From: Trametes villosa
Lineage: Eukaryota; Basidiomycota; Agaricomycetes; Polyporales; Polyporaceae
Assembly (NCBI GenBank): GCA_002964805.2
Contig: PUDQ02000003.1
Location: forward strand, 992,001-1,056,000
Length of the DNA stretch: 64,000 nucleotides
Reading direction: 5' to 3'
In this document: positions 29,680 through 62,609 of the stretch, piece by piece
Numbering within the stretch: the stretch's first letter is position 1
Layout of the letters: each line of letters starts with the position of its first letter
Notes under the pieces: model-generated
Database searches by the model: none
The model's input: the letters and a program-made list of their open reading frames with translations, nothing else
What the model was told of the DNA's origin: nothing
Position numbers and translations under genes: made by a program

Positions 29680-29686
29680 TATAAAA
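29680..29686 (+). promoter_or_regulatory. TATA box candidate before LINE ORF1
   Basis: TATAAAA at 29680-29686 lies 79 bases before the preferred ORF1 start (29765), a plausible distance for an RNA polymerase II start at about 29710. It suggests a second, shorter transcript carrying ORF1 and ORF2, or a promoter inherited from an older 5' end. Confidence 0.45.
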
Positions 29687-29764
29687 TGGGGACCGTTAGG
29701 CCCTGCTCACCACGCCCAGCAGCGATACGCCCTCCGAGAACGGCCAGCTCCTCACTCTACCGCG

Positions 29765-31333: not shown

Positions 31334-31762
31334 TAGCATACCTAATGTTCGCTGCACTCTACTGTACCTAGCCTAGCTACCCCCACTCAGCCTAGACCTG
31401 CCCGCCCAATACATGCGTACCCACTACACCTCTACTGCTGACCGCCACCTGCCTCGGGAAGGAGTGTGAAAACACACGGTTGGGCCCTCCCTATCCTGCC
31501 AGTGGCTCCGGATGAACACCTGCTGCCCGCTCTGGATAGAAACCCGAGGATCTATCCAGAGCGAGCAGCGACAACACCCCCGGCGACAACCTCGCGGCCT
31601 AGCAAGCCGTGAGCGAGCCACAAACAAGCGACAGACTACACACAAAGAGAATACAGCATACCTTCGACTAGCGGCAACACGGTAAGCGGAACAGCGGCGA
31701 CGCCCTCCCGAGGCCTGGAGAGCGTCCGTGCGGCTCCCCTACCCAGTGAAGGAGGCGGCGAA
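31334..31762 (+). other. LINE inter-ORF spacer
   Basis: 429 bases between the ORF1 stop and ORF2 ATG. A pair GGATAGA-AACCCGAGGATCTATCC near 31536-31560 can form a hairpin. ORF2 must be translated by reinitiation or another unconventional route; no overlap exists. Confidence 0.45.
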
Positions 31763-34700
31763 TTGAACAGTGCGGCCGAGCAAAGGGGTCCGGGAGGAAG
31801 GGCGAGCAATAGCCGTCCTCTCCGGGACGCCATACTCGATCTTTCCTCGAATGAGGGAACCCGAGGTCGACCTAGCCGGGCGACCGTAAACGCCGTGAAT
31901 GCGGGCCCACAACGCGACTCGAATGGGAATGCTAGCGCTGACCTGAATGGGGCAGGTCGCGAAGAGCCCAGAGAAGGGCAGAGCCGTGAGCGAATGCAAC
32001 AGCAGCGGCCGCAGCAGCGACGTGCTGCCACACGACGAGAGCGCCTGGGCAGACGGACAGCCATACGCATTGCGTCCTTGAATATGAATGGGTTTGGCTC
32101 GTTGACGCCAGATCACCCAGAGAATAAATGGAACTCTATGTACAAACTACTTAAGCAGAACTCCGTTGGAGTACTCCTACTCCAGGAGACCCACCTAACG
32201 CCGCAGAGAGTGGACAACATTGTAAAATTGTATAAGAGTAAGATAAAGATCCTGTACTCTGCACACCTCGACGCCCCGACACGCAAGGAAGGTGTCGCGG
32301 TAGTCCTGAATAAAGCACAGGTCGATGCGGCCGGGGCATCCGTGACAGAAATAGTACCTGGGCGCGCCATACAGGTCTCGCTGAAGATGAACCGAAACGA
32401 CGATGTTCATGTCCTCTGCGTGTACGCGCCAACATCTGACGGGGTAGATGAGCGGCGACGTTTTTTCCAAGCTGTCAGAGAATTCTATGAAACGCACCCG
32501 GCCCTCCCGCGACCATGTCTTATGGCTGGGGATTTCAACAACGTTGAGGAGGCAATCGACCGGCTGCCTATGAGCGAGCCCGACCCATCGCTTCGCGACC
32601 TGGATGACCTGAAAGAGAGTCTGAACATGATGGTAGCAGACGGCTGGCGAAATACGCACCCGAATGTCAGAAGATACACCTTCCACAGGGGAACTGGACC
32701 GGGAGCAGTATGCTCAAGACTCGACCGGATATATGTGACCAGGCAGACCTTCGCGCGGGCGCGTGAGTGGGAGATAAAGACCCCGCATGTAAAGACTGAC
32801 CATAGCTTGATTAGCGTTCAACTGACGACGCCCAGCGCCCCGGTGGTAGGTAAAGGGCGGCCAGTAGTCCCACTCCATTTACTTCGGGATAGAACCCTGG
32901 CAAAGCAGATGAAGGAAGCTGGAATGCGAGCAATCAGTAAGCTGAACGACCTCGAGAGGGGGGCGAGCCGCACAGAGGACAACAACCCACAGGTAATATT
33001 GTACCACCTGAAAAAGGAGTGGTTAGCTCTGGCTAGGAAACGCGAACGCGAAACAGTACCGAAACTGGTGGCGGAGATCAAAATGGCAGAGAAAGAACGA
33101 GACGAGCTGGAAGCCCAACACGAGAATGATGGGCCTGACCGCGCAGCAAGAATCAACAAGCTAACAAAACAAATCGCAGAGCTCAGCGCGAGGAGAATAA
33201 AGCAGCAACAAACGAGAGGGAGAGCGGTACATGCTCTTGAAGGAGAGCGACCAACGAAATACTGGTCAGCTGTACACAAACCGACCAAGCCGAGAGAGAT
33301 CATCCATGCCTTTGAGGTCCTGAGCCCGGAAGGGGATAGCGGCCCTCGGACGTATGTCGAGGACTCGCACAAGATGGCGAAGCTCGCGAGAGACTACCAC
33401 GAGCGTATTCAATATGACGAGGTGGGGATCCCGCCCGACCAAGAGCGAGAAGCCTGCATACGGGAAGCCCTGCGAGCCCTAGATGCAACGCTAGAGAATG
33501 AGCAGCAGGACGAGCTGATGAGCGACATAACGTATGAGGAGTGCGAAGTGGCCCTCCGCTTCTCGAAGAGCGGTACTGCTCCGGGCAGAGACGGCCTACC
33601 ATATGAGCTGTGGAAGACGCTCCAGGCGCGCTTTGTGGAAGATCGGCGGCACGAAGGCCGGGCGACCTTCGATGTGCTGAGAGTACTGCTGTGCGCATAC
33701 CGAGACATCCAGGAGTTTGGTGTCTGCAACTCCGTCCCGTTCGCTGAAGGCTGGATGGCACCGATATACAAGGAGAAAGGAGAACGCACCCAAGTCGCCA
33801 ATTATAGGCCGATCACCCTCCTGAATACGGACTATAAACTCCTGTCCAAGATCCTCTCCATTCGACTTGCCGCGGTAGCGCCGCAGCTAGTGCACACGTC
33901 GCAGGCAGGGTTTGTTCCTGGCCGACGTCTCCACAACCATACGCAACTGGCAAGAATGATCATGTCCTGGGCGGAAGCAAACGAGGTAAACGGCGCGATA
34001 GTTGCCCTCGACCAGGAGAAGGCGTACGACAAGATAGCGCACGACTACCTGTGGAGAGTCCTCCAGAAATTTGGTGTCCCAGACCGCTTTGTCCGAATAG
34101 TCCAGGCCCTATACACGCGTGCAGAAACATCAGTACTGATCAACGGCATCCTCAGCGACCCGTACCGAGTCGTACGGGGGGTGCGGCAGGGAGACCCCTT
34201 GTCGTGCCTACTCTTCAACCTAGCGATTGAACCGCTGTCTGCAATGATCCGCAAAGGCGATATTAGAGGACTGAACGTACCGGGGTGCCCAGAAGCCGTC
34301 AAAGCGACCCTCTTCGCAGACGATACAACGGTCTACTTGTCCTCGGAGGATGACTTCGCCTCCCTCCAGCGGGTGCTGGATGTTTGGTGTGGCGCTGCGA
34401 AAGCACGCTTCAACCTGAAAAAGACGGAGATTATCCCAATCGGCTGCCCAGAATTCAGAGAAGAACTGGAGAGGACATACCGCGAAACGGGTCAGTGGAA
34501 GAACTACCCGCGAAACATACACGTAGCCGGGGAAGGTGTCGCAGTACGAGTGCTTGGCGCATGGATAGGAAACGGTGTAGACGAATGCGGGATCTGGCTC
34601 CCCACAGTCAATAAGATAGCTGAGGCCTTGGAGAGATGGGAGTCATCGCGAGCCACCCTAGAAGGTAAAAGACATGTAGTACAGATGTTCTTGGGGGGAA

Positions 34701-36916
34701 TGTCCCAATTCCTCACCAATGTTCAACGCATGCCCCCGCCGGTCGTGGAACGACTGAACAAGATGTCCAACAAGTATCTATGGAGTGGGAAACGCATCCC
34801 CCCTGTCAGCCGCGAGCACCTACTCCTGCCGCCCTCGCGCGGTGGCTTTGGTATCCTCGATCTTGATGCACGAAATGACGCGATCGATCTAATGTGGTTG
34901 CGGGCGTACCTGGACATGACGCCAGGGCGCCCACTCTGGGCCAAGGTGGCCGACGAGATCTTTGCAAAAGCAGTGCCGGCGAGGAGCGTACCTGCGGAGA
35001 GATCGCTTCGCGTTAGCCCGTTCCTACAGCACTGGAAGCCGACAGCCTACAAGCTGCCGGAATCCCTACGGAGTATGCTTAAGGTTGCGAACCGATATGG
35101 CCTCCGCCTGGAGTGCCGTGCCCCGGCACGGGCCCTCATGAGGGCTATGCCTATGTGGGACAACATCATGACGGACAGACCGTCCGTCCGGAAGCTTGCC
35201 GCGCGCTCTGTGGCGTCGGCCTGCCTGAAAAACAATCACCAAGCCCGGACGGTTGGGCAATTTGAAGCGGTGGCGGCCGCTGTGAACTCGAACGGCCACC
35301 GCCCGGCCCGCGACTGTGGGTGCGAAGAATGTGTACGGGCACGTACGGACTATGGCTGTGCGGACCCCCACGGATGCTTTGAACGAGCGCGCCAGTTTCT
35401 GAACCTCCTCCCTGCGCGATGGGACCCGAGGGGAGTGCATCCCGAGGACTACGAGGATCAGCTGATGGTGGGAGTGGCCAGAGACTTCCGAACTGTAGAC
35501 AGAGAGTACATACCCTTTAATAGGCGTGTGACGACCAGGGGCTCACTGAGCGACGCTTTTAGGATCTTCACAGGGCCGGGTGATGTGAGCGGAGCCCGCT
35601 TGGACATGACGATGAGCGACAACCGCGTGCCGATAATGGTGGCGGCCACGGATGGGTCGTGCTTCAACAACGGGCAGAGCGATGCCCGCGCCGGAGCGGG
35701 AGTCTTCATCGCGGACGGCCACCCGTGCAACCGGAGCCTACGCCTCCCTACGAACCTGAAGCAGTCAAATCAGACTGGCGAAGCAGTGGCCGCGCTCATG
35801 GCGACCCGAGCACCGGAAGCCGAGAGGACGCTCCTCCAAGTCACGGACTCCAGAACGACGATGAACTCAATTACCCTGCGACGGGAGAAGAACGAGGATG
35901 AGGGATACATCATGCAAGAAAATGCGGCACTCACCCAAGCCCTGGTCGCGGCGAACCTATGCAGAAGGGCCCACACAGCCTTCCAGTGGGTGAAGGGGCA
36001 TGCCGGTCACCCAGGCAATGAAGCTGCGGACAAGCTTGCAGCAGCAGGGGCACAGAAGCCGATGGCAGATGAGGTCGACCTGACGATCCCGGATGAGCTG
36101 AAGCTGACAGGCGCGAAACTCACCGCGATAACCCAGCGGCTGGCGTATAGAGCGATCGTACGAAGAAAGCAGGAGGCGACCAAGCCCCGCACTAGAACTG
36201 CTGCGCGGGTCCAGCAAATCCTGAGCGACCTGCGAGACGACTTTGAAACGAAAGCGACCGAGGAGCAGCTATGGAAGTCCTTGAAACGTTTCCCTATCAC
36301 GCGTGAGCAACGACAGTGGATGTGGATGGCTATCCACGATGGATACATGGTTGGGACTCACTGGCTTCGCCCGACGATGCCGGATGATCTCAAAGAGCGC
36401 GCCCTCTGTAAGACATGCCTCCAAACTGAAACCCTGGAGCACATTTTCTTCTCGTGCGAAGCGGAGGGCCCCCGCAGGGTGTGGCTTCGGCTGGACGGTC
36501 TTTGGAGAACAACGGGACGCCATACCCCGGACCCAAGCTGGGGGGCGGTGATGGGAGCCGCCTGCGCGACCTTCAAGTCGCAGGAGGGCGTAAAGGACGT
36601 AGCCACGGGTCAGCGTTGGGCAACCCTGGTAGTGGAATCTGTACATTTAATCTGGAAACTGCGTTGTGAACGAGTGATCGCGAACGAAGGGGCCGAGTTC
36701 TCGGTGGAGGAAGTGGACAGGCGCTGGGAGGCGGCGCTACTCCGGCGCCTGTCCCTCGAGCGCGCCATAGTGGCTCAACTCGGAGGGAAAACGAGAGCAA
36801 AGCGCGCCCGGACGGTAGACCGCGTCTGGAGACCCCTTCTGGAGGGTGGATCACAACTGACCCAGGACTGGGTAACGAATGGCGGGGTTTTAGTGGGTAT
36901 TAGACGAGGGAGATGA
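31763..36916 (+). CDS. LINE ORF2: endonuclease, reverse transcriptase, RNase H
   Basis: 1717 residues without interruption. Residues about 100-350 form an apurinic-like endonuclease (SLNMNG, LLQETH, VYAPT, GDFNN, SRLDRIYVT, TDHSL), which nicks target DNA. Residues about 670-900 form the reverse transcriptase (NYRPITLLN, QAGFVPGR, DQEKAYDKI, RGVRQGDPLS, catalytic FADDT). Residues about 1290-1425 form RNase H with its acidic residues in place (ATDGSC, GEAVA, TDSRT, KGHAGHPGNEAADKLA). A C-terminal CKTC, H, C pattern (about 1550) resembles a zinc-binding motif. All catalytic motifs are intact, so the protein should be active in target-primed reverse transcription. Confidence 0.95.
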   Translation: MNSAAEQRGPGGRASNSRPLRDAILDLSSNEGTRGRPSRATVNAVNAGPQRDSNGNASADLNGAGREEPREGQSRERMQQQRPQQRRAATRRERLGRRTAIRIASLNMNGFGSLTPDHPENKWNSMYKLLKQNSVGVLLLQETHLTPQRVDNIVKLYKSKIKILYSAHLDAPTRKEGVAVVLNKAQVDAAGASVTEIVPGRAIQVSLKMNRNDDVHVLCVYAPTSDGVDERRRFFQAVREFYETHPALPRPCLMAGDFNNVEEAIDRLPMSEPDPSLRDLDDLKESLNMMVADGWRNTHPNVRRYTFHRGTGPGAVCSRLDRIYVTRQTFARAREWEIKTPHVKTDHSLISVQLTTPSAPVVGKGRPVVPLHLLRDRTLAKQMKEAGMRAISKLNDLERGASRTEDNNPQVILYHLKKEWLALARKRERETVPKLVAEIKMAEKERDELEAQHENDGPDRAARINKLTKQIAELSARRIKQQQTRGRAVHALEGERPTKYWSAVHKPTKPREIIHAFEVLSPEGDSGPRTYVEDSHKMAKLARDYHERIQYDEVGIPPDQEREACIREALRALDATLENEQQDELMSDITYEECEVALRFSKSGTAPGRDGLPYELWKTLQARFVEDRRHEGRATFDVLRVLLCAYRDIQEFGVCNSVPFAEGWMAPIYKEKGERTQVANYRPITLLNTDYKLLSKILSIRLAAVAPQLVHTSQAGFVPGRRLHNHTQLARMIMSWAEANEVNGAIVALDQEKAYDKIAHDYLWRVLQKFGVPDRFVRIVQALYTRAETSVLINGILSDPYRVVRGVRQGDPLSCLLFNLAIEPLSAMIRKGDIRGLNVPGCPEAVKATLFADDTTVYLSSEDDFASLQRVLDVWCGAAKARFNLKKTEIIPIGCPEFREELERTYRETGQWKNYPRNIHVAGEGVAVRVLGAWIGNGVDECGIWLPTVNKIAEALERWESSRATLEGKRHVVQMFLGGMSQFLTNVQRMPPPVVERLNKMSNKYLWSGKRIPPVSREHLLLPPSRGGFGILDLDARNDAIDLMWLRAYLDMTPGRPLWAKVADEIFAKAVPARSVPAERSLRVSPFLQHWKPTAYKLPESLRSMLKVANRYGLRLECRAPARALMRAMPMWDNIMTDRPSVRKLAARSVASACLKNNHQARTVGQFEAVAAAVNSNGHRPARDCGCEECVRARTDYGCADPHGCFERARQFLNLLPARWDPRGVHPEDYEDQLMVGVARDFRTVDREYIPFNRRVTTRGSLSDAFRIFTGPGDVSGARLDMTMSDNRVPIMVAATDGSCFNNGQSDARAGAGVFIADGHPCNRSLRLPTNLKQSNQTGEAVAALMATRAPEAERTLLQVTDSRTTMNSITLRREKNEDEGYIMQENAALTQALVAANLCRRAHTAFQWVKGHAGHPGNEAADKLAAAGAQKPMADEVDLTIPDELKLTGAKLTAITQRLAYRAIVRRKQEATKPRTRTAARVQQILSDLRDDFETKATEEQLWKSLKRFPITREQRQWMWMAIHDGYMVGTHWLRPTMPDDLKERALCKTCLQTETLEHIFFSCEAEGPRRVWLRLDGLWRTTGRHTPDPSWGAVMGAACATFKSQEGVKDVATGQRWATLVVESVHLIWKLRCERVIANEGAEFSVEEVDRRWEAALLRRLSLERAIVAQLGGKTRAKRARTVDRVWRPLLEGGSQLTQDWVTNGGVLVGIRRGR

Positions 36917-43154: not shown

Positions 43155-44465
43155 TCATCGCAGCAAGCTCATCCCGGCGAAAGACTCGTCCAGACCTGCT
43201 TTCTCCCTTCCTTGCTCACGCCTTGGGCTGTCGTGCTCATCCTCGCTGTCGACTGACTCGTCCTCGTCTTCGCAGAGCAGCGCCAGCCCGCGCCATCGCT
43301 GCACTCTGACGCGGAGGAGCTTTTCGATCTCGTCGATAGACGCGCACTTCCCAAGCGTCGCGCGGAACTTGTTGAACCACGGTCTTCGTCCGCTGTGCAC
43401 ATGTCAGTACCGCGATTCATGTGTGGGCACTAAACGATAGCATAGCGCTCAGACGTACCATTGGTGGTCGACGAAGTGCCGTATGTGCGTCTGGGTTGTC
43501 TGCATGGTCGCGGTGCCAGGGTGCTCTCGGCATATATCGAGGTATTCGAGCGAAATCTTCACCGGGTCGGGGATGATGTTCGCGAACAAGCTGCACGGGT
43601 CGTGAGCCGGCGCTCTAACTGAAACCTCCCGCGATTCGGGACTTACCATGGATTCGCGAGCAGCGTCTCCCCGACCATGACCCCATCCGCCCACGTCTCC
43701 TCCAGATTCCTCTGCACGTCCTCCCACGTCCGGACGTTCCCGTTGCTCACCACAGGGATGCTGACCCGTTCCTTGAGCACGCGCACCTGCGACAGGTCTG
43801 CCGCACCCTGTCGCCGTCTGCGCGCGGAGACGTGTCGTGCGTGGAGGGTAAGCCAGGACGCGCCCACAGCTTCGAGGCGCGCGGCGAGATCGGGGGTCGA
43901 GGGTGTGTTTTGGCACAGGCGCAGTTTTGCGCTGACTGGTACCGAGAGGGAGTGTGATAGTGCCGAGACTACAGGGCGAGTTTATGAGATTGAGTTCTTC
44001 ATGATTTAGTGGAAAGTGCGTACCTATGCTCTCCACAACTGGCCAATCCTTCTTGTCCAGAAGGTACCCGCCATAGTGGCCTTCCCTTGCGGCTTCCTGG
44101 GGACAGCCAAGGTTGAGATCTATATACCTTCGCGAAACGTGAGCTTCATGCATGGTCAATTCGCACAAACCATGCGCACCTATGGCATCCGCCTTGTCCA
44201 CAACTTTCCGGGCAGCATCCAAGACAATCTGGGGATCGTTACCGCATAACTGCACCACGACGGGTGCGTCGACTTCATCATGGAGCCCTCTCATGTGAAA
44301 TTCGAGGTATTCCTGGTCGTTTAGGAGGCGTTCAGGGAGGAGCATTTGGGTGTAGACAAGCGAGGCGTTGTAGCGGCGCACGAGGATGCGGAAGGGGAGG
44401 TCGCTCTGGTTGACCATAGGAGCTGCCACCCTCGACAGGTCTAGGTGCGTTGCTACTCGTCCCAT
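43155..44465 (-). CDS. dus1: tRNA-dihydrouridine synthase (Dus1 type, tRNA positions 16/17)
   Basis: FMN enzyme that reduces uridines in the tRNA D-loop. The start MGRVATHLDLSRVAAPMVNQ at 44465 is followed by SDLPFRILVRRYNASLVYTQM. The catalytic block DLNLGCPQEAAREGHYGGYLLD contains the active-site Cys and directly follows VDKADAI once a 60-nt intron without stops is removed. Later exons give SVPVSAKLRLCQNT, TLHARHVSARRR, IPVVSNGNVRTWED and ADGVMVGETLLANPW, the barrel elements that hold FMN. The C-terminal helical part (RRPWFNKFRATLGKC) ends in an acidic tail at 43155. Five or so introns. No missing key residue noticed. It diverges from CFEM gene 2. Confidence 0.9.
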
Positions 44466-45433
44466 TGCCCAAGCCTCAGCCGGGATCGGGGGTGGTTTTC
44501 AAGGTATTTGTGCTGAAGACTATTTAGTGAGTCGTGAATACGACTCTGAGGATATGGGCGTAAGTCGAAGTCATGAGTGTCTGGGACAGAGATCCGTTTG
44601 AGATCCAAGGCTTGCCGGGAACTGCCGGTAAGGGCGCTAATAAAGACCACAACATATCGTCCACGTCTCTGTCCAGCTCTGTCCAGTCTGTCCTCGCCCT
44701 CCATTCCTCTCTCCACCACCCCTCTGCCCTCCTTGTCATCTCACACGTTTTAGCTATCAACCCTCGGAGGAGGGTCGAGTGTTTGCTCCTCCTGCGTGGA
44801 GAAGACGCTCAGCTGGAGAAGCCGACCTCAGTCCGCGTGATGAGTGAGCTGATCAGCGGGTGCACACCGATGCCCATCGCGGTGAATGTGTCGGCGGCTG
44901 GACAGGCGCGAAGGTGAGCGACAGTCAGATGACACCCGCTACAAGCATGCTCGAAGAGCTGCGCATGTTTCTCGCCGCACGCGGGGTACGGTTCAGGTGC
45001 GCATGCTACTTTGCGGGAGTCATGCGTGCATGCATCGGCGGTCGCCCCGAAGCCCTGGAGTGGATTGCCTCCGTGCGTACCTTCCCGCGCTGGAGTCTCT
45101 TCCGCCGCACAATCTCGGAGGGCTGTATAAAACTGCGGCGACCTGCATCCCCACGTCGCTCCTCCTCGACGACGCCCCGCCTTAGGACCGCCTCATTCCG
45201 CCCTCGCCTGCCGCGCTCCGCTGCTGCCACATTCTCGTCTTACGTCTAAGTTTGCGCCGGGCCCACTCTCCCACGGCGAAGGCTCCGAAACACGCGCCTG
45301 GAGGACTTCTAGCTCGCGGCCTCGAACAGACCCCGCACCTCCGCCTCCACTTATACCCCGGACGTCTACGCTGGCTACCGCCGTCGCTCTTGCTCTGCGC
45401 ACCCTCGCGACTCCGCTCAGACGCCTTGGCACC
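44466..45433. promoter_or_regulatory. Divergent intergenic region of dus1 and CFEM gene 2
   Basis: About 970 bases between the two starts. A good TATA box, TATAAAA at 45126-45132, lies about 300 bases before the CFEM start. Open frames here (for example 44573-44917) have no recognisable content. Confidence 0.5.
45126..45132 (+). promoter_or_regulatory. TATA box candidate for CFEM gene 2
   Basis: TATAAAA in the context GGCTGTATAAAACTGCGG, on the strand of the CFEM gene, leaving a leader of roughly 270 bases. Strong TATA boxes suit highly regulated surface-protein genes. Confidence 0.5.
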
Positions 45434-46888: not shown

Positions 46889-47720
46889 TTAGACCTTCAG
46901 AATGTCAACCGCTGCATCATCTTCGTTGCACCGCAATTTCCAGGAAGACATACTCACTGAACGAGGTTGATATAGATTCCGCATGACGAGATTGACGCGC
47001 TCTCCGATATCCCTCATCTCCTCGTTGATGACCATATGCGGGATATCGAGCTCCCTCAGCGTCGCGAACAACGCGAGGTTGTACGCCCATGGATCCTCTA
47101 GAGACCGCACCCCATCGTCGAAGACCCACTCTTGAACTGGCTCTAAGACCACTGTGGGTGGATGCACGTCACCTTCAACGTCTGCGACTGCATATATGTA
47201 CAGGCCCTCGACGTACCGAAGAGGGAAGTTCGATAGGCGGGTAACATTCTTTGCAGCCGCGGGTCGCTCAGAAGCCTCTGGCGATGATCCGATGCACCCG
47301 GTACGGTCGATGTGGTAGCATATACGATTGGATCGACTGCTGACCTGTCGCTCAGGATTGCAACAGAGTTGTGCCCGCCATCGACCAAGGCTTTGGCGGC
47401 CTCTTCTTCGGCAGCCAGCTGAGCTAACATAATGGCATGTTGCATCTCGTAGGTATCCGTATCGTCCCTCGTGAAGCCGTGAGTCTTCATGACGTTTCGC
47501 GCGACCTCCTTGATATACTGAGGGGAACGGATGTTCAGATGCTCTGCGAGAGCGTCGCAAAGCGTTGTCTTCCCACTCGAGGACGGTCCCAATACGAACA
47601 CCGCCCGGTGGAGGAGTCGACGGGAGAAACTGTCACTGGAAACTTCTACGTCCTGTCCCGCATTGAGCAACACTTCTTGAGCCGAATATCCGGCGAAATC
47701 CTTACCTCAAGTTGGCTCAT
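46889..47720 (-). CDS. AAA-domain / NadR-like P-loop ATPase or kinase
   Basis: Start ATG at 47720 (MSQLE), spliced to DVEVSSDSFSRRLLHRAVFV. The P-loop is LGPSSSGKTTLCDALAEHL, followed by YIKEVARNVMKTHGFTRDDT, EMQHAIMLAQLAAEE and AILSDRSAVDPIVYA, where SDRS carries the Walker-B-type Asp. A later exon has EWVFDDGVRSLEDPWAYN. The layout fits the AAA_28 family of small fungal ATPases that resemble NadR/thymidylate-type kinases; the substrate is unknown. The last exon may use a further intron (GTGAGTATG near 46960), so the 3' end is uncertain. It is divergent from the RdRP-helicase gene with only 239 bases between the starts. Confidence 0.72.
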
Positions 47721-47959: not shown

Positions 47960-50900
47960 ATGGCCACGATAGTGCTGCGTAGCACACCATCTCCGGACGA
48001 CGACTCATGGGTTTTCAGCGTCCAGTTACCAGCGGCACCGAGGCGCCCGGGTATGGGAATGCACGTCTCGTTCACAACGGAGGCGATCAAGTTCGACTGG
48101 ACCTTGTACCCCACGAACCGCATTCTGCACTCGGACGACATCTCGCAGTTCGTCCTTGCCTCGTTCGAGGGTCTACGGTTCCCCGAGAAGCCTGCGTCCG
48201 CGACGAGGGAATACAAGATCCGTCTATTCAAAGCCGGCTTTCACCTCAACGGGGTTCAGTATCGCTTCTACGGTCACAGTAACTCGCAACTGGTGGGCAC
48301 ATCCTGTCCATGTTCGCATCGCAGGGCTCAGCTTATAAAAATTTTGCGCACAGCGTTCGGGGAGCTGCTTTCTTCGTGCGGGCACAGATCAGGCACTTGA
48401 AGCGAAGATCAACAGCTACGGCGAGTTTCGACAGATCAAGAATGTCGCCAAATGTACGTGCTGTCCCGATATCGACAGCGCCATTCGGTAACGACGGTTG
48501 TCAGGTGCCAAAAGAATAGGCCTTCTCTTCTCCAAGGCTGAGATCGACTGGGTGCTTGACCCTCGCGTCACCGAGGACATCGAGGACATCGTCGTTAACG
48601 GGGAGAACTTCTCCGATGGCTGCGGGCTCATCGCGCCCCACTTCGCTCGTATGCTGAGTCGCCGGAAGAAGGTGGTTTTCCATGGCCGGCCATACACTCC
48701 GAGCGTGTATCAGATCAGGTATGGACTGAACGCGGCCTCAACCTCGTTGACTGCGCTGCTAATAGTAGCATCGGCTTGCAGATACAAGGGCTACAAAGTG
48801 GGTCCCGAGTCCGGCGACGTATCCTGTGGCTTACGCTTGATTCTAGGGCGTGCTCATGCTGCACCCCCAACTTCAAAAGGAATGCGTAGCGCAGTTCCGG
48901 GCCAGCCAGAAGAAATTCCGTGCCACGAACGATAACACGTTCTCCGTCGTCGCCCATTCGGTGCCGTACTCCTTTGCTCGACTCAATAACGAGATTGTCG
49001 TCCTCCTGTCGAGCCTTGGAATCTCTTCCGAGACGTTCCTGAAGCGACAGGAGGAGTACCACGGCTGGCTACGGCTCGCATCCACGGATTGGCAGGTCGC
49101 CTTCAACATCCTGTGCGCGCTCAAGCAGTTCGAATCGGCAGAACGGCTCCTCGTGCGAGGCATCGAGTCGCCCGACGTCCAAACAAGCATACGATCTGCT
49201 CAGATGGCCGAGATCAACTCCTTCAAGAAGAAAGAGAAGTTCCGCGCTCGCATGATCATCCCGAAGTCCCGTTTCCTCTTTGGTGTCTGCGACCCGTACG
49301 GCGTCCTCAAGGAGGGCGAGGTACACGTTCGGGTCTCCGTCCCTCGCAAGGGTGCCTCGACCCTCACGAATACCGAGGTGCTCGTCGTACGGAACCCCTG
49401 CCTTCATCCAGGCGACTGCCTCAAGCTGTGGGCGGTGGAACATCCCAGTTTGAGTCACCTGGTCGATTGTGTCGTCTTCGCGTCGACGGGGCAACGCGCC
49501 GCCCCATCCATGAGTGCAGGCGGAGATCTAGGTAGGCAACATACGTCCCGGAACCTGCCGGGTACTTCGCTGATGGTCGTACAGATGGCGATGAGTACAC
49601 GGTCATCTGGGATCCGGACTTCATCCCGCGCAAAGTTGCCGAGGTTCGTTGCTGTATCCTGTGTGATTATTGGCTATGAGTTTGTAGCTGATAATTCAAT
49701 TTGTGCGAAGTCGTACACCTATCCAGCACCGAAAGAGCACACAGTTAGTACAGTGACGAGAGAGGACCTCGCCCGCCACTTTGCGTCCTACAACTCGTGA
49801 GTGTCGTGCACGCCTCTTCTTGCGATTTGGAAGAAACTTAGAAGCATGGTTGTGGAGTATGGCTTTAGCACGCATCGTCAAGCTGCACAGCAAATGGGTT
49901 CGGTGTAGCCCTAAAGGTGCCATGAGCGACGAATGCCAGGATCTCAATGCCCTACATTCTCTCGTCGTAGACGGCGGCTCGGTCAAGATTCCCGACCGCC
50001 TGCTACATCCACCAGAGGATCCGACCACTCCATTCATCCTAGACCTCCTCCAGGAGTGTGCGAAGACGTTCTACGACGACTTCATTCAAACCCGCGAGGA
50101 CTCGGCCCAAGACCTAGTTACCGGGGATGCAGAAGAAGTGCTGGTTGGGCTTCTGACGTCGGAGAAACTCGCGGTGTCCGAGTACGAGCTGGTCATGATG
50201 GCTACCCGTTTTGCCGACAGACATCATCTCGAGATCCGCAAACACTTGGGACATGTCGACTTCGGTGCGCTCTCGACTGCGGAGAAGCACGCGCTGAGTT
50301 TTGTGCTCGGTCTGACCCCGGACAAGGACCCCTATGTATGGAATAGGTATGAGGTTTAGGTCATGGCAATTGGGTATATGCTCACGAGCGTTTGGACAGT
50401 CTGATGCGTTCGGAGATCCTGCAGTCGCGTGATCTCGAGGAGAGGAAGCTCGGTGGGCCCCTCCGTCTGCAAAAGCTGTACGCCTCCTCTCAGCATGGTC
50501 GAGCTGCCTTCTTCGAGTATCTGCACCAAGCGCTGGATAACTTCAAACGACGCTTGCTTATTCTCAAGGTTGGCCTTTTCCGAGATATAGTTTGTGTGAT
50601 TGGGCTAAGCTGGTCCGATCTTAGACTGATGATCGATTCTCAGTCGGAGTCTTCCTACATGGAGAGATTGCTTGGGACGACGACGTTTGTTGACTTCTCT
50701 CTTGATTATTTGACATAACTAACCTCTGCCCTCTAGGCCGATGTCAATCAGAATGTCGTGGTGTGCTCGTTCATGCCAAAAGCCTCGGGCCTCATGTCGG
50801 CCTACTGGCAGGGAACGAATGGCTACAGGCTGTACTGTGGCGATAACGTGATGCAGCTCTTCGACGGGGACAGAGGGAACAGCTTTGTCTTCGTCACGCG

Positions 50901-53900
50901 CCCACCCCCAAAGTCCGGCAAGGACATCATCACTAGTATTGCGCTGAACAAAATCTCAAAGCGAGTGCAGCAGGTCAGCCATTGCTCTACTCGTGCATAC
51001 TGCTAGTACTGATGAATGCGACGTAGCAATGCGGTCGCGTGTACCGCTCGCCTGTGCTCGAGATCGAAATCCACGTCGTGTCATGCCGTGATCGGGTGGC
51101 CCATCAAGCTTTCGATCTGCGCTTCGAACAGTACGTCTTACGCGGTGCTAAATCCGCACCCCCGTATGACTAATGTTTTGTAGTGTGCAAACCGAGGAGA
51201 CGCTGCGGAGGTTTGACTACACCAAACAGCCCTTTTCCTACAACTCCATCGCCGACTATGATTGGGGGGAGGACCACCTCGGGATACAGCTCTTCGACGT
51301 GCACACCTTGCCCGACCGCGTACAGGGAATATTGGACCGTCTAGACGACAACAGACTCATTCATTACTTCGAGCTCGCCATCCGATACCGCGCCGAGAGT
51401 CACGTCTTCATGATCTTCAGCGTATTCATGGAAAAGGAAGACCCAGACATCGACATTCTGCGCCTATGCATCACCATGTATCCTTCGCTCGCATATTGTG
51501 TTCTCAAGAAACACATCCCCGATGGTCCCGCGGCCCTCCCCGAGAGTATTGCGCCCCTCGCCCCTTCGATCATCCGAAGCCTGCTCTGCTCCGCTGACGC
51601 CATGGGGATCGCTACTCTTGCCGCCTTGGAACGACTCTCGCACGACATCGGAGCTCTCGACCTTGGCACATTTCTCGACATTCTCTGGTCTGCGGCGCTC
51701 TGTATCCGGTCCCCGAAGTTGGTGCAGGAGGTCCTCCTCGTTCTACAAGACAGCCGTAGTGCGGCCCGAACAGAAGACGCCGTCGCCGAGTACTCCCACA
51801 AGCACGCGATGGCGGTGGTTTTCGACAGGGCTGAGGAAGCCGCAGATACTTGTCCTTGTGACGAGACGGGCCGTCCCAAGCGTCAATCTACGCCGCCTAC
51901 GAGAGCCAAGCTGGTCCATCCACAACAACAACAGGCTCCTCCAGAATCGGACGGGAATGCTCCCACTGCGGACGCGACCGATCCTTCAAGTGGGGGTGCA
52001 AAAATCATTGTTGTCGCCCACACCCGGATCGACGCCGCTAGCACGGTCCGAATCCATAGCCACGTTCGCCTGCAGGTTGCATCCGTGACCCCGAACTCCA
52101 CGCTGCCGCCTCCCATTGTCGATGCAGTAGTTCTCAGGGCCACGCGAGGCGAGCTCCACCTCGAGGTCAAGCAGCCCCTACCCCCCGAGTGGGAGGTCGT
52201 CGACTGGAATATGTTCGATGCAGGTGGCGTCGCGACTTCCGCAGCCATGCTGAACGCGGTGCGCAAACTGGCGGATAAGCGCTACGAGTGCTGCAAGCTC
52301 TACAACGTCCTTGTTGGCTTCCCCTCGGGGCCGCTTGCTCGAGGTGCGACTTCCCCGGGTGGGTCTGACGCCGGGCGGAGCTCCGATGAGACGGCCGACG
52401 ACTTGGACTCCACGCTCAACGCAAGTCAACGTCGCGCAGTCATGCTCGCGGTGCAGACACCGATGTGTCTCATCTGGGGTCCTCCTGGTAAGCTCCTACT
52501 TTTGCAATCCCCGATCGACTTGTCTATCTGACAAACTGAGGCAATAGGAACTGGGAAGACTACCGTTGTCGTTCAAATTCTTGTACAATTCCTTCGCCGC
52601 TTTCCGGATGCGAAGATTCTCATGACAGCTTCAACACACAACGGTACGCCAAACCTTGCTATCAAAGACTGTTTTCAGCATCTCACGAAGATCTGCGTCT
52701 CAATGTAGCCGTTGACAACGTACTTGAGAGATTCGTGGCCTTCAACGATGCTCACCACCTCCTCGACGACGACAAGATACTGCGGGCGGCGACCGAGAGC
52801 TCAAGGGTGCACAAAGCCCTCCAGAGGTATACCGTGGACGCCCGACTTGGCGGGAACATCAACGACAACCCCCGGCTGCTTCAAAAGGCCATGAAGCGTG
52901 TCAAGGAGTCCCGCATCGTCTTCACGACGTGCTCCGGCGCGGGCCTAGGTATTCTCCGGCATGCAGACTTCGACACTGTCCTCATCGACGAGGCCTCGCA
53001 GATTACCGAGCCGTGCGCTTTGATTCCGCTCGTCAAGGGATGCGGGCGGGCGGTTCTTGTTGGGGATCAGTAAGTATTGTGAGTTCATTTGGGATACGGG
53101 TACTGAGACGCATCTGATACCAGTGTGCAACTTCGGCCTACTGTGAAGCGCATGGGTCAGGCACTGGAATTCGACAAATCGCTCTTTGAACGCCTTTGGA
53201 AAGGAGCCGACTACTCAGAGCTAGTGCGGACTATGCTCGAGGCATGCCGTTCCACACCTCTGCAAGACGCTCGTCTCACATTCAGTCTTATGCATATCCT
53301 TAGGTCCAGTATCGGTTTTCTGAGGACGTCGCGCGCTTCCCGTCTCAGGAGTTCTATGAAGGGCGGCTGCAAACCGGGACCCCGAGGGAAACCGAGATCT
53401 CCTCCACGCTCGGGGTATCATCGTTTCCGTGGCCCCTCTTTCACGGACGCATCGGCCCCGTCGTCTTTGTCCCGTGCACCTCCGAAGAAGACTACGGAAG
53501 GTCGTCTAAGAGCAACGCAGGCCAAGTCGCACTGGTCAAGCACATCATATCCTTACTCCGAAGGCCGCTGCAACCAAACGACGATCACGCATCGCGCTTA
53601 CGATCAGCCACTATAGCGGTCCTAACCCCATACTCCAGACAGGTCCAACTACTTCGCCAGACGCTTCCTGCCTCCATGAACGCAGTAGTCAGTACGATCG
53701 ACGGCTTCCAGGGGCGCGAGGGGGACATCGTCGTATTCTCTACTGTGCGTTGCAACACGGAGGGGGATATCGGTTTCGTCGAGGATGAGCGCCGCCTCAA
53801 CGTTGCATGGACTCGACCGAAGCTGGGCCTCATCATAGTTGGCGACCGGCGCACGCTGCAGACTGGTAGCCCGCTCTGGCAAAGGGCGCTAAGTGCTTGC

Positions 53901-53936
53901 ACGGAGGTGGTGATCGCCCGACCAGACGAAACGTAG
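47960..53936 (+). CDS. RNA-dependent RNA polymerase fused to SF1 (UPF1/Hrr1-like) helicase
   Basis: One spliced gene of about 1,650 residues. The N-terminal third is an RNA-silencing RdRP: FYGHSNSQL, RIGLLFSKAEIDWVLDP, NGENFSDGCGLI, RKKVVFHGRPYTPSVYQIR, YKGYKGVLMLHP, VVRNPCLHPGD, and the catalytic DLDGD rebuilt across the intron 49532-49584. RdRP-type sequence continues (VRCSPKGAMSDECQ) and a linking region (FSVGVFLHGEIAWDDD, NVVVCSFMPKASG) leads without a stop or start into the helicase. Helicase motifs: Walker A GPPGTGKTT split by intron 52488-52547, LIDEASQ, GDHVQLRPTV, QYRFSED, TIDGFQGREGD and RLNVAWTRPKLG. Every intron tested keeps the frame; one appears to be GC-AG (about 53245-53305). 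Expected role: making and unwinding dsRNA for RNA silencing. Confidence 0.87.
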
Positions 53937-54898: not shown

Positions 54899-57048
54899 AT
54901 GCTGTTCATTCACTTCGTCTCAATTCTCTTCCTCCTACACTCTGCCTCGGCGCGGCCCGCTCGCCCCAAGGGGCCCGCACACCTCCGCCCCAGGCCCTCG
55001 GTGCCTCAGAGGCACCGGCCTGCGCAGGAGATGCCCGTCGTCAGCAGGAACGGGACCGAGCTCCCGCCCTACGACTACAGCTATGTCTTCCAGCAGCTCA
55101 TCGACCACAACAACCCCAGCCTGGGGACGTTCCGGCAGCGCTACTGGCACACATACGAGTTCTACGAGCCTGGTACGTTTGTCGCACTTTACTGCCACCG
55201 AAACGCGGATGTCTGACGTCAATATGTGCTGGGCGGCCCGATAATCTTGTTCATGCCGGGAGAGGTCGATGCATCGGGTAAGTCCAATACCAACACTGTG
55301 CCTGCATACCTATTGAGTATAACGGCTTCGACAGGCTACTTCGACTACTTGGCGAACTCGACGATGAACGGACAGATCGCGCAGAAGCTCAACGGCGCCG
55401 TCGTCATCCTCGAGCACCGTTTCTTCGGCGACTCCAACCCGCTGCCGGACATGTCCGTGCAGAGCCTGCGCGTGCACACCGTGCAGCAGGCGATCGACGA
55501 CCTGGCCTACTTCGCGCAGAACGTGCATCTGCCGATGCCCAATGGAGACCAGCTCGCCCCTGGGAAGGCGCCGTGGATCCTGACTGGTGGGAGCTACGGC
55601 GGCGCGCTGGTCAGCTACACGATGAGCAAGTGCGTCCTTCGAACTTCTCACGGGTTGCTCGTGCTAATATCTCTTTCAGCCACCCGGAATCTTTTTACGC
55701 TGGCTACGCATCGTCCGCGGTTGTCCAAGCCATCATGTAGGTCCTCACGCCGCGTTGAGGAGCTCTGTATCTGATTGTGTATGCGAACTAGCGACTTCTG
55801 GGGATACTTTGAACCCATCCGCCAAGCTATGCCCGCCAACTGCTCAGCAGACATCCAAGCCGTCATCGCCCACGTCGATTCTGTCCTCACAACGAATAAC
55901 AGCGCCCAGGTCACCGCACTGAAGACCACGTTTGGCCTGCAAGGCCTGGCACACAACGACGACTTCGCCGCCGCTCGTGCGTTCACCACTCCGCTTGCAC
56001 GTGTTCCGTGCTAATGGTGATAACGAATTCCTCCAATTGACAGTGCAAGAGAACTTCCTGTCATGGCAGGCTCTGCAGCCGGACAGCGGGCCCGGAGCCG
56101 ACTTCTTCGAGTTCTGCGACGCCTTGGAGGTCAAGAACGGCGTCAATGCTGGGCCCTCTGGATGGGGTCTCGACCACGCCCTCCAGGCGTGGGGCAACTA
56201 CTGGAAGTCGACATACTACGCGGAAAGTGAGTACCTTCAGACTTACCGCTGTAGATGTGCGGCTGACAATGCGGCAGTTTGCGGTGACGACGACAACGAG
56301 TGCGTGCCGCCTGTGTACTCGTCGAGCAATAAACCTGACGGACATTTACAGGACTTGTCTTGGGACGTACGACGCGAGCAACCCGTTCTGGTCTCACGAC
56401 TACCTGGGACAGACTGACCGCGCCTGGAACTGGCTCTTGTGAGCATCACCATCCCTTTGCGCGTTCACACGCACACCGTACTTACTGAGATGGCCTGTCA
56501 GGTGTAACGAGTTCGGCTTCTACTTCGATGGTGCACCTGCCAACCACCCTACCCTCGCGTCTCGTTTGGTCACCCCGTCCTGGGGCGAGGTGGGTCAACC
56601 ACAACCAACGACTCGCATTTATGCTAACATGTGCGGAAAATAGCGTCAATGCGGCTACCGCTTCCCCGGCGCGTTCTCCAATGTCTCTTCCTCAGTCGAG
56701 GTCCCCAACGCGCGCGGGGTGAACACGGTCTACAAGGGGTGGAACACCACGACCGAGCGCCTCATCTTCGCGAACGGCATCAGTACGTACCCTCCCACCG
56801 ACCCCGCCTGTGCCCTTTCGGACACTGACATCTACACGATAGACGACCCATGGCGCGAAGCGACGGTCGCGGCGGACGGGTCGACGAGCACGGGCTCCGA
56901 TATGCAGCCGCACCTGCTCTCGGACGGGTTCCACTGCTCGGACCTGCTCGTGGACGAGGGCGATGCAAGCCCCAAGGTGAAGAACGTGCAGACCACCGCA
57001 CTCACGTACCTGGAGAAGTGGCACTCCCAGTGGAAGCCGACGGCGTAG
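54899..57048 (+). CDS. Secreted serine carboxypeptidase, family S28
   Basis: S28 peptidases (Pro-X carboxypeptidase/DPP2 type) cleave after proline. A signal peptide (MLFIHFVSILFLLHSASA) and short pro-region lead to YVFQQLIDHNNPSLGTFRQRYW. The nucleophile is in GGSYGGALVSY after VVILEHRFFGDSNP; HPESFYAGYASSAVVQAI follows across an intron. Catalytic Asp is in NDPWREATV, reached by removing a 60-nt stop-free intron, and His in SDGFHCSDLL; the end is EKWHSQWKPTA. About eight introns. Anomaly: intron 1 starts with GTACG after FYEPG (about 55173), but no AG lies before the next exon (GPIILFMPGE, from about 55234); the expected acceptor reads TGG. The gene may be damaged there, or the assembly may be wrong. 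Confidence 0.82.
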
Positions 57049-57258: not shown

Positions 57259-60140
57259 TCACGCAGCCCGCCTCCCCGGCGCCCCCGGCAAGTCCGCACG
57301 CCTGTCCGCGACGCGCATCGCGTCGACCCACACCGCGTCCGCGCCCGCAGCGGCCTCCCAGCGCTGCACGAGCTTCCCGAGGAGCGTGTGCTTCCCGCGG
57401 CCCTCGACGAACGCGCGCTGCGTGACGAGGACCATGCCGCGCTGGCAGCGCGAGAGCATCACGTTCATGCGGTTGTCGAAGCTCAGGAAGCCGGGCCGCG
57501 TCGTGCGCACGGCGGAGACGAGCACGTATGGCGCCTCGTGGCCTGCGAGGCAGGTGGGTTAGGATTCGACGTGAGATGTTGAAAGGGATGGGGATAGGGA
57601 CGCGGAGAAGGGCGCACCTTGGAAGCTGTCGACGTTGAAGACGATGTCCGAGGGCAGGTTCGCATCCTTGAGAAGCTGCGTGATGAGCGCGCGCTGGGGG
57701 TCATACGGGGTGATCACGCAGAAGTCGTCCTTCAGCCTGCGGTAGTAGTCGCGCACGAGGTTGACGACCGTGCGGGCCTCCTCGGTGTTCTACACGGAGA
57801 CGAGGAAGGGGGGATGAGCTGCGAGGGAGCGGAGGCGCGGCGCGGCACACTGACCTTCCAGCTCCGGCCGGCGGCTTCTTCTGCGCCCTTGCGCACGTCG
57901 ATGGCGCGGATGCACGCGGTGCCTGCGATGGCGTGCACGGAGTTGAGCTTGGATTGGTACATCGCGTCCGAGATGAACCGGCCCAGCTCGAGCGGCATGC
58001 GGTCTGCGCGGGTACCAGCACTACGTCAGCGGCAGGCGGCAGGCGGCGGGTAGCGGGGAGAAACAGACGCATACATTGGGTGTCCAGGAAGAACGAGGCG
58101 CTCCTGAGGTGCGGAAAGTCGAAGATCGTCTTCATTTTGGGGGCTTGTTCTTTGCCGTATGGCGGCACTGTCAATAGACGCACTCAGCAACACACCTGTG
58201 CGAGATAAGACGGGCTGCGCTCACGCTGCTGCGGGTCGCCAAACATGCAAACCTTCTTTAGCTTGCTGAACTTGTCGAACAGATGCTGGCGGGCGCCTCG
58301 TGAGTGAACTCGCGTACTCGGAGATGCGATACCGTGGAGCGCGACTCACCATGAACTCGAGGGTGTCGATCTGCGATGCTTCGTCAACGAGGAGGATCTC
58401 GACCGGGCGGTACTTGAAGACGCCGTACAGGTCGAGCATGGGGTTCGAGAGCATCGCGAGGGTGCACAGCAGGACGTGCGTGTCCCCGATCCGGCGGTTC
58501 GCGTCGAAGCCCAGGCCGAACTCGTCGGAGCGGATGAGCGTTCCCTCGACGGCGCCCTTGTATAGATGTTCGTGCCTGCGCATGCACGAGTCAGACCGGA
58601 GGCCCGCATGCCGCCACAGCCGCGCCGGCGCGCGCGAGCAGAACGTACCACTCAAAGTGGAACTCCTTGGAGACGAAGAGCTTGAAGTCGATGTCGCGCT
58701 TGATGATGCTGCGCGCGATGTTCTTCACGCCCACGTTGGACTGGGCGACCACCCAGACCGTCTTTTTACACTCTTGGAAGTGGCGAAGACCCGCGGCGAT
58801 CGTCGATGTCTTCCCAGAGCCCGGCGGGCCTGAGCGAGCCTACGGTCAACGTCGTACACAGGGGACTGCGAAGGAAAGGACCGCCCACCCTGAACCCGAT
58901 CGATGAGATTGCTGCCCGAAACCATGGCGTTCGCGACGCGTATCTGCGACGGGTTGAGCTGCTCAAAGTCGCGCTGGGGCGTCTGCACGGCGCGCGGGAT
59001 CCTGCGCGCCGGAAACCAGAGCAGGCGGATGAACGGCGAGCGGTCCATCGCGGCCTCTCCCTGCAGCAGCCGCATGATGTACATGTCGCGCGCGCTTTCT
59101 GCGCTAGTCGCCTGCTCGCGCCCGACGACGCGCACGCTCTGGATGTCCATGGGGGGGACGCCCTTGCGCTTGAGCGTGGTCTTCTTCCCCCGGGCGCCCT
59201 CGGTGTATGCGCGCATCTCATCGCCGTTGATCTTCAGGAACGTCTGCAAGCCGACGTGCCGCCAGAATCAGCCTTGAGGCGTGGGTGCGATCTGGGTGCG
59301 CGTGGGCTACGTACCTGTCTGCTATGTCGGACCCTCGTCTTGAACCGGGCGTTATGAAGGACGAGCTTCCCGTCCTTGTCGAGCTCCCACCCCTCGACGT
59401 CGTTATCCGTGTGGGTGGGCTTCATTGCCTGGAGGAGCTCAACGTTCATAACATGGAGAGACAGACACGCGAGATGCGCCGGACGCAGGCCGCGCGTCGA
59501 GACCCTCGCCTCCTTGGGCACGTCGCCGAGCTCTCGGGCTACCATGCTGTTGTGATCTCGTCATAAGTCTGCTTGTGAAGGGCGGAAATCGAACGTACTA
59601 CGAGAGCCAGGCGCGGAGACAGAGGTCGTCGTTGCTCTGACAGTGCCACAGGGCGTTGATGGCGAACTTGCGCGCCTGCGCCCCGAGCTGGTGGCACGCG
59701 ATCTCCCCAGGGGAGGGCAGCCCTTTCTCAACGATCCCTGCGAACATCACGGGCAAATCGATGCCCTGAGCGCGGAGGTTGAACCGACGGTGGAGCAGCA
59801 GCAGAATACGCGCCGTATCAACGCCAACCAGCACACACCGAGATGGATTGAGCACGTTTGATAGTTTCTTGTTGGCATCGCTGGGGGTATGGCTCTGGCC
59901 GGCTGACGCTGGACCGCAATCGACGGTGAGCTGGACGATGAGCTTTTCTGTTGCGAGCGCGACCGCCTCCAAGGATCCCTTCTTGGAGAGCCGCAACGAC
60001 ACTCCCAGTGCCGGCGCCCTCGCACCCTGACCAAAGCCAAGCAGCATCCCAAGCGTCTCGCACTGACCGCTCGGAAGGCGCTTGACATTGACAGTCTCCG
60101 GGAGACCGGGGACCAGCTTGCGGGTGTCGAGAGTGGGCAT
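57259..60140 (-). CDS. UPF1-like superfamily 1 helicase, paralogue 2
   Basis: Start MPTLDTRKLVPG at 60140. The N-terminal domain ends DDLCLRAWLS exactly as in the paralogue at 5.6-8.9 kb, and the next exons align too (LRPAHLACLSLHVMNVELL; RHSRQ before an intron). Core motifs: Walker A GPPGSGKTST (about 58800-58830), LVDEASQIDTLEFM, GDPQQ with PPYGKEQAPKMKT, MPLELGRFISDAMY, VDSFQG with YVLVSAVRTT, and NVMLSRCQRGMVLVTQ. It ends at GAPGRRAA, without the long Ser/Pro tail of paralogue 1. About nine introns. Expected to unwind RNA or DNA; substrate not known. It converges with the S28 gene and diverges from Rpc40. Confidence 0.85.
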
Positions 60141-61011: not shown

Positions 61012-62609
61012 ATGGCGTCCTCTTCCTCTTCCCAACTCCCGCCCTCCGCCTTCAACCCTCGGCGACATGTCGGCGTGCACGCGGAGCGCATCTCGGACGT
61101 CGCGAGCACAGAGTTCCCCGGCCACTATCCCGGGGAAGACCACAGCTGGAGCTTGGCGCGGTTCAAGGAGGTGCGCATCCTAAAATGCCTCGCGGAGGAC
61201 CAGGGCTAACCTGTGTGTGCGCTGCAGAACCTGACCGTCTCGGTGAAGAGGCTCTCGCAACGGTCAATTGAGTTCGACCTCGTCGGCGTCGACGCGTCCA
61301 TCGCGAATGCGTTCCGACGAATAATGATCGCGGAGGTGAGCCCCATACCCGCTCGCACTCCCGGAAGCGTGCTCACGTCTGGCGCAGGTGCCCACTATCG
61401 CCATCGAGGACGTCTTCGTGTGGAACAACACGTCCGTCATCCACGACGAGATCCTCGCGTCGCGCCTCGGCCTCATCCCGCTCAACGTCGACCCCGCGCT
61501 CTTCTCGCCCCGCCTGCCGGGCGACATCCCCTACGACCGGAACACGCTCGTCTTCCAGCTCGACGTGGAGTGCACGCGGGAGAAGGGCGTGATCGTGAAC
61601 GAGTATGTGACGAGCGGGGACTTGAAGTGGGTGCCGCAGGGCGAGCAGGAGTCCGTCTTCGGGGACGTTGTGCCGTGCGCTACGAACAAGGTGTGTTTTT
61701 CGTGTTCATCGTGGAACGCTTCCGTTTTTCCGCGAGTTACTGCTTGGCAGTATTCGCCGTTTTCCCGAGCCAGCGGCCTGGTAGGACCTGGCAATAGATA
61801 GGCACCGACCCAGAGCCGTTCTGCCCCATACACCATGCGTCTGCGTGGCCTTCTTCCCCACGCATTACTCAACCGACGTTTCAGGATATCGTGATCGCAA
61901 AACTACGACCTGGGCAGGTCATCAACATGGAGCTGCACGCGATCAAGGGCGTCGGAAAGGAGCACGCAAAATGGAACCCAGTCGGTGAGTGCAAAGTGTC
62001 CCTTCCATCACCTCCCAACTGCCCTAACTCGCGTCTCCTAGCCACGGCGACGTACCGACTACACCCGCTCGTCCTCCTGAATCCGTCAAAACCCGTCCCC
62101 CCACACCTCGCCCAAAAATTCGCGTCATGTTTCAGCCCTGGCGTCGTAAAAGTCAGCCCCGACGGAGAGGTGCGTCCACCCACACCCACACTGCCCGCTA
62201 GTGAATTAAAGCTCACGCGTCGCAATTCACAGGTCTCCATCGACGACCGGCACCTGCGGAAAGAGACGATGTCGCGCGAGGTTCTCCGGCACAAGGAGTT
62301 CGAGGGCTGCGTCGAGCTCAAGCGTATCCGCGACTGGTTCATCTGTACGTCCTACCCCCTTCCCTCCCCCTCCTCCCATGTCTTCCTTTCCCCACCGTAC
62401 TGACGCGCACGTTGTTTGCAGACAGCGTGGAGAGCGAGAGCGCGTACGCGCCCGAGGCGCTCTTCCCGGAGTCGATCAAAATCATGCGCGGGAAGATCGC
62501 GTCGATACGCGCGGCCGCGGAGGCCCTCCTCGCGGACTCGGAGGGGCCGGGCGAGGGCGCGGTGGCTGCGGGCCCGGACGCGGATGGGGACGTCGAGATG
62601 GAGTCGTGA
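61012..62609 (+). CDS. RPC40: RNA polymerase I and III subunit RPAC1 (Rpc40)
   Basis: Shared alpha-like assembly subunit of RNA polymerases I and III, paired with Rpc19 in the nucleus. Start MASSSSSQLPPS at 61012, then a first exon ending SLARFKE. The next exons give the alpha-type dimerisation domain: LVGVDASIANAFRRIMIAE, VPTIAIEDVFVWNNTSVIHDE and ILASRLGLIPLNVDP. Later exons: DIVIAKLRPGQVINMELHA, GVGKEHAKWNPVATATYRL, RETMSREVLRH-type region (KETMSREVLRH) and ESESAYAPEALFPESIKIM. It ends in an acidic tail (DADGDVEMES). The intron before DIVIAKL is about 195 nt, longer than its neighbours of 50-65 nt. All splice sites checked are GT-AG and keep the frame. Confidence 0.92.

Follow-up and report, generated by a model that had tools for sequence, protein, structure and literature searches.

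Cellular RNA-dependent RNA polymerases (RdRPs) make double-stranded RNA for Dicer, and UPF1-like helicases move along single strands with ATP. In S. pombe, the RdRP Rdp1 and the superfamily 1 (SF1) helicase Hrr1 form a complex. The SAD proteins of Neurospora, which include SAD-1 and SAD-3, form a complex as well (PMC7763443), and Hrr1, SAD-3 and RnhA are described as orthologous stand-alone helicases, of which RnhA carries an NF-X1 zinc finger (PMC5384783); here and below, statements with PMC numbers follow passages of the papers cited. The subject of this report is a gene of the basidiomycete Trametes villosa, at positions 47960-53936 (plus strand) of a 64,000-nt stretch of contig PUDQ02000003.1 (the whole stretch is termed the window), that encodes one long protein in which an RNA-silencing polymerase is joined to an RNA helicase. 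The S. pombe and Neurospora pairs resemble it in placing an RdRP and an SF1 helicase in RNA silencing. However, in those pairs the enzymes are separate proteins, and the helicases belong to the RnhA/SAD-3/Hrr1 group, which does not appear to be the nearest to the fused helicase.

A closer counterpart is FgRdRp5 of Fusarium graminearum, which has C-terminal helicase and AAA domains and is nearer to plant RdRPs (PMC4515635, 2015). In the RdRP tree it branches separately, and its expression is raised in sporulation and sexual stages (PMC11237814, 2024). Deletion of Fgrdrp5 reduces ascospore discharge and lowers 21-25 nt 5'-U reads by ~32% (PMC11237814). Judged by sequence, the T. villosa gene is an orthologue of FgRdRp5, and its main feature is already known. 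The newer points appear to be the resemblance of the helicase to UPF1 and IGHMBP2 and a TLDc-like domain between the two enzymes.

A single gene encodes polymerase and helicase

Splicing by hand, guided by homologues, yields one gene of 17 exons and 1687 amino acids with no internal stops (ATG at 47960, TAG at 53934-53936). The predicted exons, all on the plus strand, are 47960-48292, 48354-48453, 48505-48718, 48782-48797, 48847-49531, 49585-49643, 49711-49796, 49858-50346, 50400-50568, 50625-50684, 50737-50973, 51027-51130, 51184-52487, 52548-52643, 52709-53069, 53124-53241 and 53304-53936. The putative introns measure 49-67 nt (913 nt in total) and are all GT-AG except the last (53242-53303), a GC-AG intron whose flanking frame agrees with homologues at LE/VQYR. 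The preliminary description of this DNA had proposed that the RdRP and helicase parts share one frame with no gene-length gap between them; the spliced frame bears this out, because the longest intron is 67 nt. The product is 78.2% identical to P0001 from Cubamyces lactineus over 1677 aligned residues, with gaps of at least four residues only at 1112-1118 and 1260, and 78.5% identical to P0002 over 1662 residues.

A Pfam search of the joined protein, which the same description had recommended, places RdRP (PF05183, residues 83-537, E 1.1e-108), AAA_11 (E 1.3e-45) and AAA_12 (residues 1455-1659, E 1.5e-46) in a single chain. This arrangement, an N-terminal PF05183 followed by a C-terminal SF1 helicase that includes AAA_12, defines an RdRP-helicase of the FgRdRp5 type. 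The RdRP core spans residues 1 to ~580 (47960-50104, introns included). Its catalytic DLDGD motif is intact at residues 448-452 (49525-49592, interrupted by the intron at 49532-49584), with Asp 448 conserved in relatives; the RdRP is of the RNA-silencing type. Both the DxDGD catalytic loop and the RDR/QDE-1 fold of cellular RdRPs are present, and RNA polymerase activity is predicted. In sequence, the RdRP part is much nearer to plant RDRs, such as RDR2, than to Neurospora QDE-1 (183-192 versus 54-56 bits); FgRdRp5 is likewise described as nearer to plant RdRPs (PMC4515635). To our knowledge, solved RDRs and QDE-1 are without a helicase.

Distribution, orthology and age of the fusion

A homologue search with the whole window protein, to which a length window was applied, listed 120 best matches, and 103 of these combine PF05183 with PF13086 or PF13087. 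They come from what we take to be the orders Polyporales, Boletales, Agaricales, Russulales, Hymenochaetales, Auriculariales, Cantharellales and Sebacinales. When the search was started from a lichen-fungus protein, P0202, both domains were found in 117 of the 120 best matches listed (P0202 itself counted), which presumably represent Lecanoro-, Leotio-, Sordario-, Dothideo-, Eurotio- and Pezizomycetes. The same domain order is therefore widespread in Agaricomycetes and present in a second phylum; the ascomycete homologues rule out a restriction to Agaricomycetes, and recurrence in two phyla excludes chance joining. One match, P0128, filed under Acaulospora colombiana (Glomeromycota), is 84.7% identical to P0127 of Serendipita vermifera over 635 residues; it was taken as a contaminant and not counted as an extension of the range. 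A fusion-like protein filed under the plant Salix suchowensis (P0214) is likewise suspect. Several members carry misleading names, such as Methylisocitrate lyase, PhoH-like protein or ATP-dependent helicase upf1 (P0176, P0253, P0274, P0010).

Whether the architecture had been catalogued was left open at the outset; it has been, as FgRdRp5. The Fusarium protein (P0299, FGSG_09076, 1721 residues) is 38.8% identical to the window protein over 1596 aligned residues and shares its RdRP-then-SF1-helicase order and its clades in trees of both halves; the lengths are similar. Pfam places AAA_12 of P0299 at 1476-1677, and the published limits are 1475-1677 (PMC11237814). FgRdRp5 differs in belonging to another phylum and in its published domains, given as RdRP, DEXDc and AAA only (PMC11237814). 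Its segment aligned to the TLDc-like domain of the window protein is 28% identical over 173 residues and has no Pfam TLD match.

Conservation was counted among listed relatives of at least 1500 residues, which number 93 of the 120 best matches to the window protein and 110 of the 120 best matches to P0202. In these two sets, respectively, the RdRP aspartates are retained at 448 in 91 and 106 sequences, at 450 in 92 and 107, and at 452 in 92 and 107. The Walker A lysine is retained in 79 of 93 (11 gaps) and 108 of 110, and the motif II aspartate in 83 of 93 (10 gaps) and 107 of 110.

Trees of the RdRP and helicase parts were built separately. In both, the fused basidiomycete and ascomycete sequences form sister clades (support 97 and 97, joint 88, for the RdRP; 99 and 100, joint 95, for the helicase), apart from other RdRPs of T. 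villosa, plant RDRs and other SF1 helicases. The window protein groups with FGSG_09076 in both trees, although the paralogue rows from the genome, assembled from exons, are gappy (166-376 of 424 columns for the helicase, 187-467 of 693 for the RdRP) and support among outgroups is low. The simplest reading of these sequences is that one fusion preceded the parting of Agaricomycetes and Pezizomycotina and that losses followed.

The passages at hand of PMC7763443, PMC11237814, PMC4515635, PMC5384783, PMC9769868, PMC4290597, PMC6572790, PMC8385953, PMC3145265 and PMC4890784 do not mention a basidiomycete RdRP-helicase fusion. Passages of RNAi papers on Colletotrichum higginsianum and Sanghuangporus vaninii give only three or four RdRPs, those of S. 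vaninii all shorter than 1200 residues. Given these two lists, the family may be under-counted.

The helicase half and the middle region

The helicase occupies residues ~1048-1687 (51773-53936, introns included). Motif mapping places Walker A (GPPGTGKT) at residues 1283-1290 (52478-52561, interrupted by the intron at 52488-52547), motif II (DEASQ) at 1411-1415 (52987-53001), motif V at 1607-1616 (53691-53720) and motif VI (RRLNVAWTR) at 1640-1648 (53790-53816); VGDHVQL lies at 1435 and QYR at 1479. Motifs I, II, III, V and VI and the stalk and beta-barrel fold of UPF1/IGHMBP2-like SF1 helicases are thus all present. Scored with the profile of the fused family, UPF1/NAM7 ranks first (296-301 bits), followed by SEN1 (249), IGHMBP2 (239-240), DNA2 (201) and ZNFX1 (169), so the proposal of a UPF1-like helicase with a full motif set holds. 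By sequence and fold together, UPF1/NAM7 and IGHMBP2 are the best matches, sharing the motifs, stalk, beta-barrel and two RecA domains. Unlike them, the window helicase lies within an RdRP chain, and helical and TLDc-like domains precede it where UPF1 has its Cys-His domain. That UPF2-binding domain does not appear among the best 25 Pfam families for the window protein, nor among those listed for P0001 or P0299.

Between the polymerase and the helicase appears to sit a TLDc-like domain, residues ~661-835 (50400-51083, introns included), as judged from the fold of a predicted structure. The 60-nt exon at 50625-50684 within it matches the TDxRFxVGxF block of homologues. The segment resembles the TLDc proteins OXR1, NCOA7 and mEAK7 in predicted fold, but its sequence scores below the Pfam cut-off, and several of the matched entries bear V-ATPase titles, which suggest no role within an RNA enzyme. 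At the other RdRP and helicase loci of T. villosa, nothing matches the middle region convincingly (best E 0.71). We know of no RNA-silencing enzyme described with a TLDc-like domain, although the literature was not searched for TLDc. An all-helical domain, residues ~882-1047 (51275-51772), is predicted from the secondary structure of residues 133-298 of the P0053 model, mapped onto the window protein; its fold was not searched separately.

In the T. villosa assembly (46.7 Mb, 140 contigs), seven places match RdRP and twelve, counting the window gene, match AAA_12; only in the window gene do the two lie within a few kilobases. On visual inspection of their motifs, stand-alone helicases were labelled UPF1 (L031), SEN1-like (L030), DNA2-like (L032) and IGHMBP2-like (L034). 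Another, L033 (G000:C101:81000-88511), is a ZNFX1-like gene with Cys-rich stretches, its 5' side cut by the contig end. It is the only stand-alone helicase compared with the PDB; ZNFX1 is the best match of one piece (53.6 bits), and another piece matches weakly (25.6 bits). L033 is likely the counterpart of RnhA/SAD-3/Hrr1 in this genome.

The Walker A exon

The Lys-Thr of Walker A is carried by a 96-nt exon (52548-52643) whose skipping would maintain the frame and which, in the annotated models of relatives, is missing or disrupted more often than other exons. Among listed relatives, 22 of 117 models that span the exon lack it, compared with 10 of 115 and 18 of 114 for the two exons that follow (mostly the same cut models) and 0-5 for other exons. 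Of models bearing WGPP, 30 of 114 are not intact at this exon, including nine exact skips and 11 that end soon after GPPG. The exact skips (P0077, P0086, P0088, P0091, P0092, P0094, P0096, P0097 and P0099) fall into two groups, Russulales, and Lentinula and its kin. Annotation error, together with the length window of the homologue list, is the likelier cause of the loss, but regulated splicing of this exon may serve to switch the helicase off.

Proposed function and alternative readings

The predicted chain order is an N-terminal RDR-type RNA polymerase, a TLDc-like domain, an all-helical domain and a C-terminal UPF1/IGHMBP2-type SF1 helicase. A single fusion event, no later than the common ancestor of Agaricomycetes and Pezizomycotina, would have united the enzymes, and both sites would have been kept since. 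From single-stranded RNA, such as aberrant or sliced transcripts, the RdRP would make the double-stranded RNA that Dicer uses; the helicase in the same chain, driven by ATP, would most likely clear structure or protein from the template or aid release, resetting and reloading of the enzyme. We consider it probable that the protein is such an FgRdRp5 orthologue, one fused chain in which the RdRP makes double-stranded RNA and the helicase aids template use. By analogy with the Fusarium orthologue, the protein may contribute to siRNA accumulation during the sexual stage, and we infer both a coupling of the polymerase and helicase activities and a docking or spacing role for the TLDc-like domain.

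Several points weigh against this proposal. The gene is known here from DNA and homologues, with predicted splice sites, and the TLDc assignment leans mainly on predicted fold: Pfam TLD scores 23.6 bits on the segment and 18.6 bits on the whole protein (gathering cut-off 24.5), P0001 and P0299 have no Pfam TLD match, and a profile search of the PDB yields no TLDc chain at E<=10. RdRP deletion strains of Fusarium had no phenotype under the conditions used in the 2015 study (PMC4515635), and the siRNA effect of FgRdRp5 was the mildest of the three RdRPs sequenced (PMC11237814). No functional result for a basidiomycete member was found in the passages seen of open-licence PMC full text.

The exceptions among the listed homologues bear on the possibility that two adjacent genes, one for an RdRP and one for a helicase, seem united only because introns were guessed: 14 of the 120 best relatives listed are annotated as RdRP only and three as helicase only. 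However, these 17 are consistent with cut gene models. Eleven of the 14 stop no more than ~35 residues past the Walker A GPPG, which would fit read-through into the intron at 52488-52547 of the window gene, and Trichoderma helicases that seem to stand alone start within RdRP sequence (P0144). The frame through the join is conserved in two phyla and the introns are short, which speaks against two genes, a reading that we reject as extremely improbable. A further homologue, P0093, which shares 58% identity with a Serendipita protein, has 1720 residues encoded on a 5416-nt contig. Because this is too short to include the 913 nt of introns of the window gene, the contig most probably represents a spliced transcript, assuming the introns of the window gene; their number may differ in the species of P0093. 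In the middle region, a chance likeness between TLDc and an unrelated beta-sandwich of similar size would fit an HH probability of 6.5-17, the lack of a TLDc chain in the profile search and a TLD match in only 7 of 31 segments at E<=1; we think it unlikely.

A fused Hrr1/SAD-3/RnhA orthologue, in effect a built-in Rdp1-Hrr1 complex, was the identity first suggested for the helicase half. Its function would suit, and an SF1 helicase does lie inside the RdRP protein. Against this, ZNFX1 is not the nearest solved SF1 helicase (169 bits, versus 296-301 for UPF1/NAM7), and the genome holds the separate, ZNFX1-type L033. The helicase tree places L033 far from the fused clade, but on a long branch and 166 of 424 columns; the comparison uses ZNFX1 and L033 as stand-ins for Hrr1 and SAD-3. 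As far as these stand-ins can tell, the Hrr1-like label is rejected, and such orthology is highly doubtful. The affinity to UPF1/NAM7 could instead point to a mainly UPF1-like role, in the surveillance or decay of mRNA, with siRNA effects secondary, and links to decay and rRNA processing have been raised from a predicted interaction network in Fusarium (PMC11237814). Yet the T. villosa genome has its own UPF1-like gene (L031), the Cys-His domain is not among the Pfam families listed, and loss of Fgrdrp5 lowers siRNAs (PMC11237814), so that this role seems quite unlikely.

Neighboring genes

By Pfam, the gene is flanked by an AAA_28 P-loop protein (47143-47706, minus strand) and a dihydrouridine synthase (43452-44498, minus) on one side, and by an S28 serine carboxypeptidase (55217-55771, plus) and an Rpb3/Rpb11-type RNA polymerase subunit (61210-61794, plus) on the other. 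Two further SF1 (AAA_12) helicase genes lie in the window at 57418-57798 and 6255-6620 (both minus); with L036 and L037, they share an HEHLY block and cluster in the helicase tree. Elsewhere in the assembly, L035 (G000:C82:488500-498400) is a tandem pair of similar SF1 helicase genes, MOV10-like by motifs only. The window also holds three copies of a similar long frame (10390-11805, minus; 13858-15267, minus; 21548-22963, plus), the first with Pfam DUF6535, and another DUF6535 frame at 24821-26161 (plus). Two long open frames on the plus strand comprise 651 codons (29378-31330, no Pfam match) and 1767 codons (31613-36913).

Implications

It is conceivable, though speculative, that Dikarya hold an old, little-noticed class of RNA-silencing enzyme, apart from QDE-1, SAD-1 and RRP-3, that consists of an RdRP, a TLDc-like domain, a helical domain and a UPF1/IGHMBP2-type helicase. 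The TLDc-like module would join or dock two motors on the same RNA, and the Walker A exon of mushrooms may act as a splicing switch that leaves the helicase dead or missing. Because the polymerase that produces double-stranded RNA shares its chain with a helicase, cooperation between RdRP and helicase would be testable by point changes in one gene.
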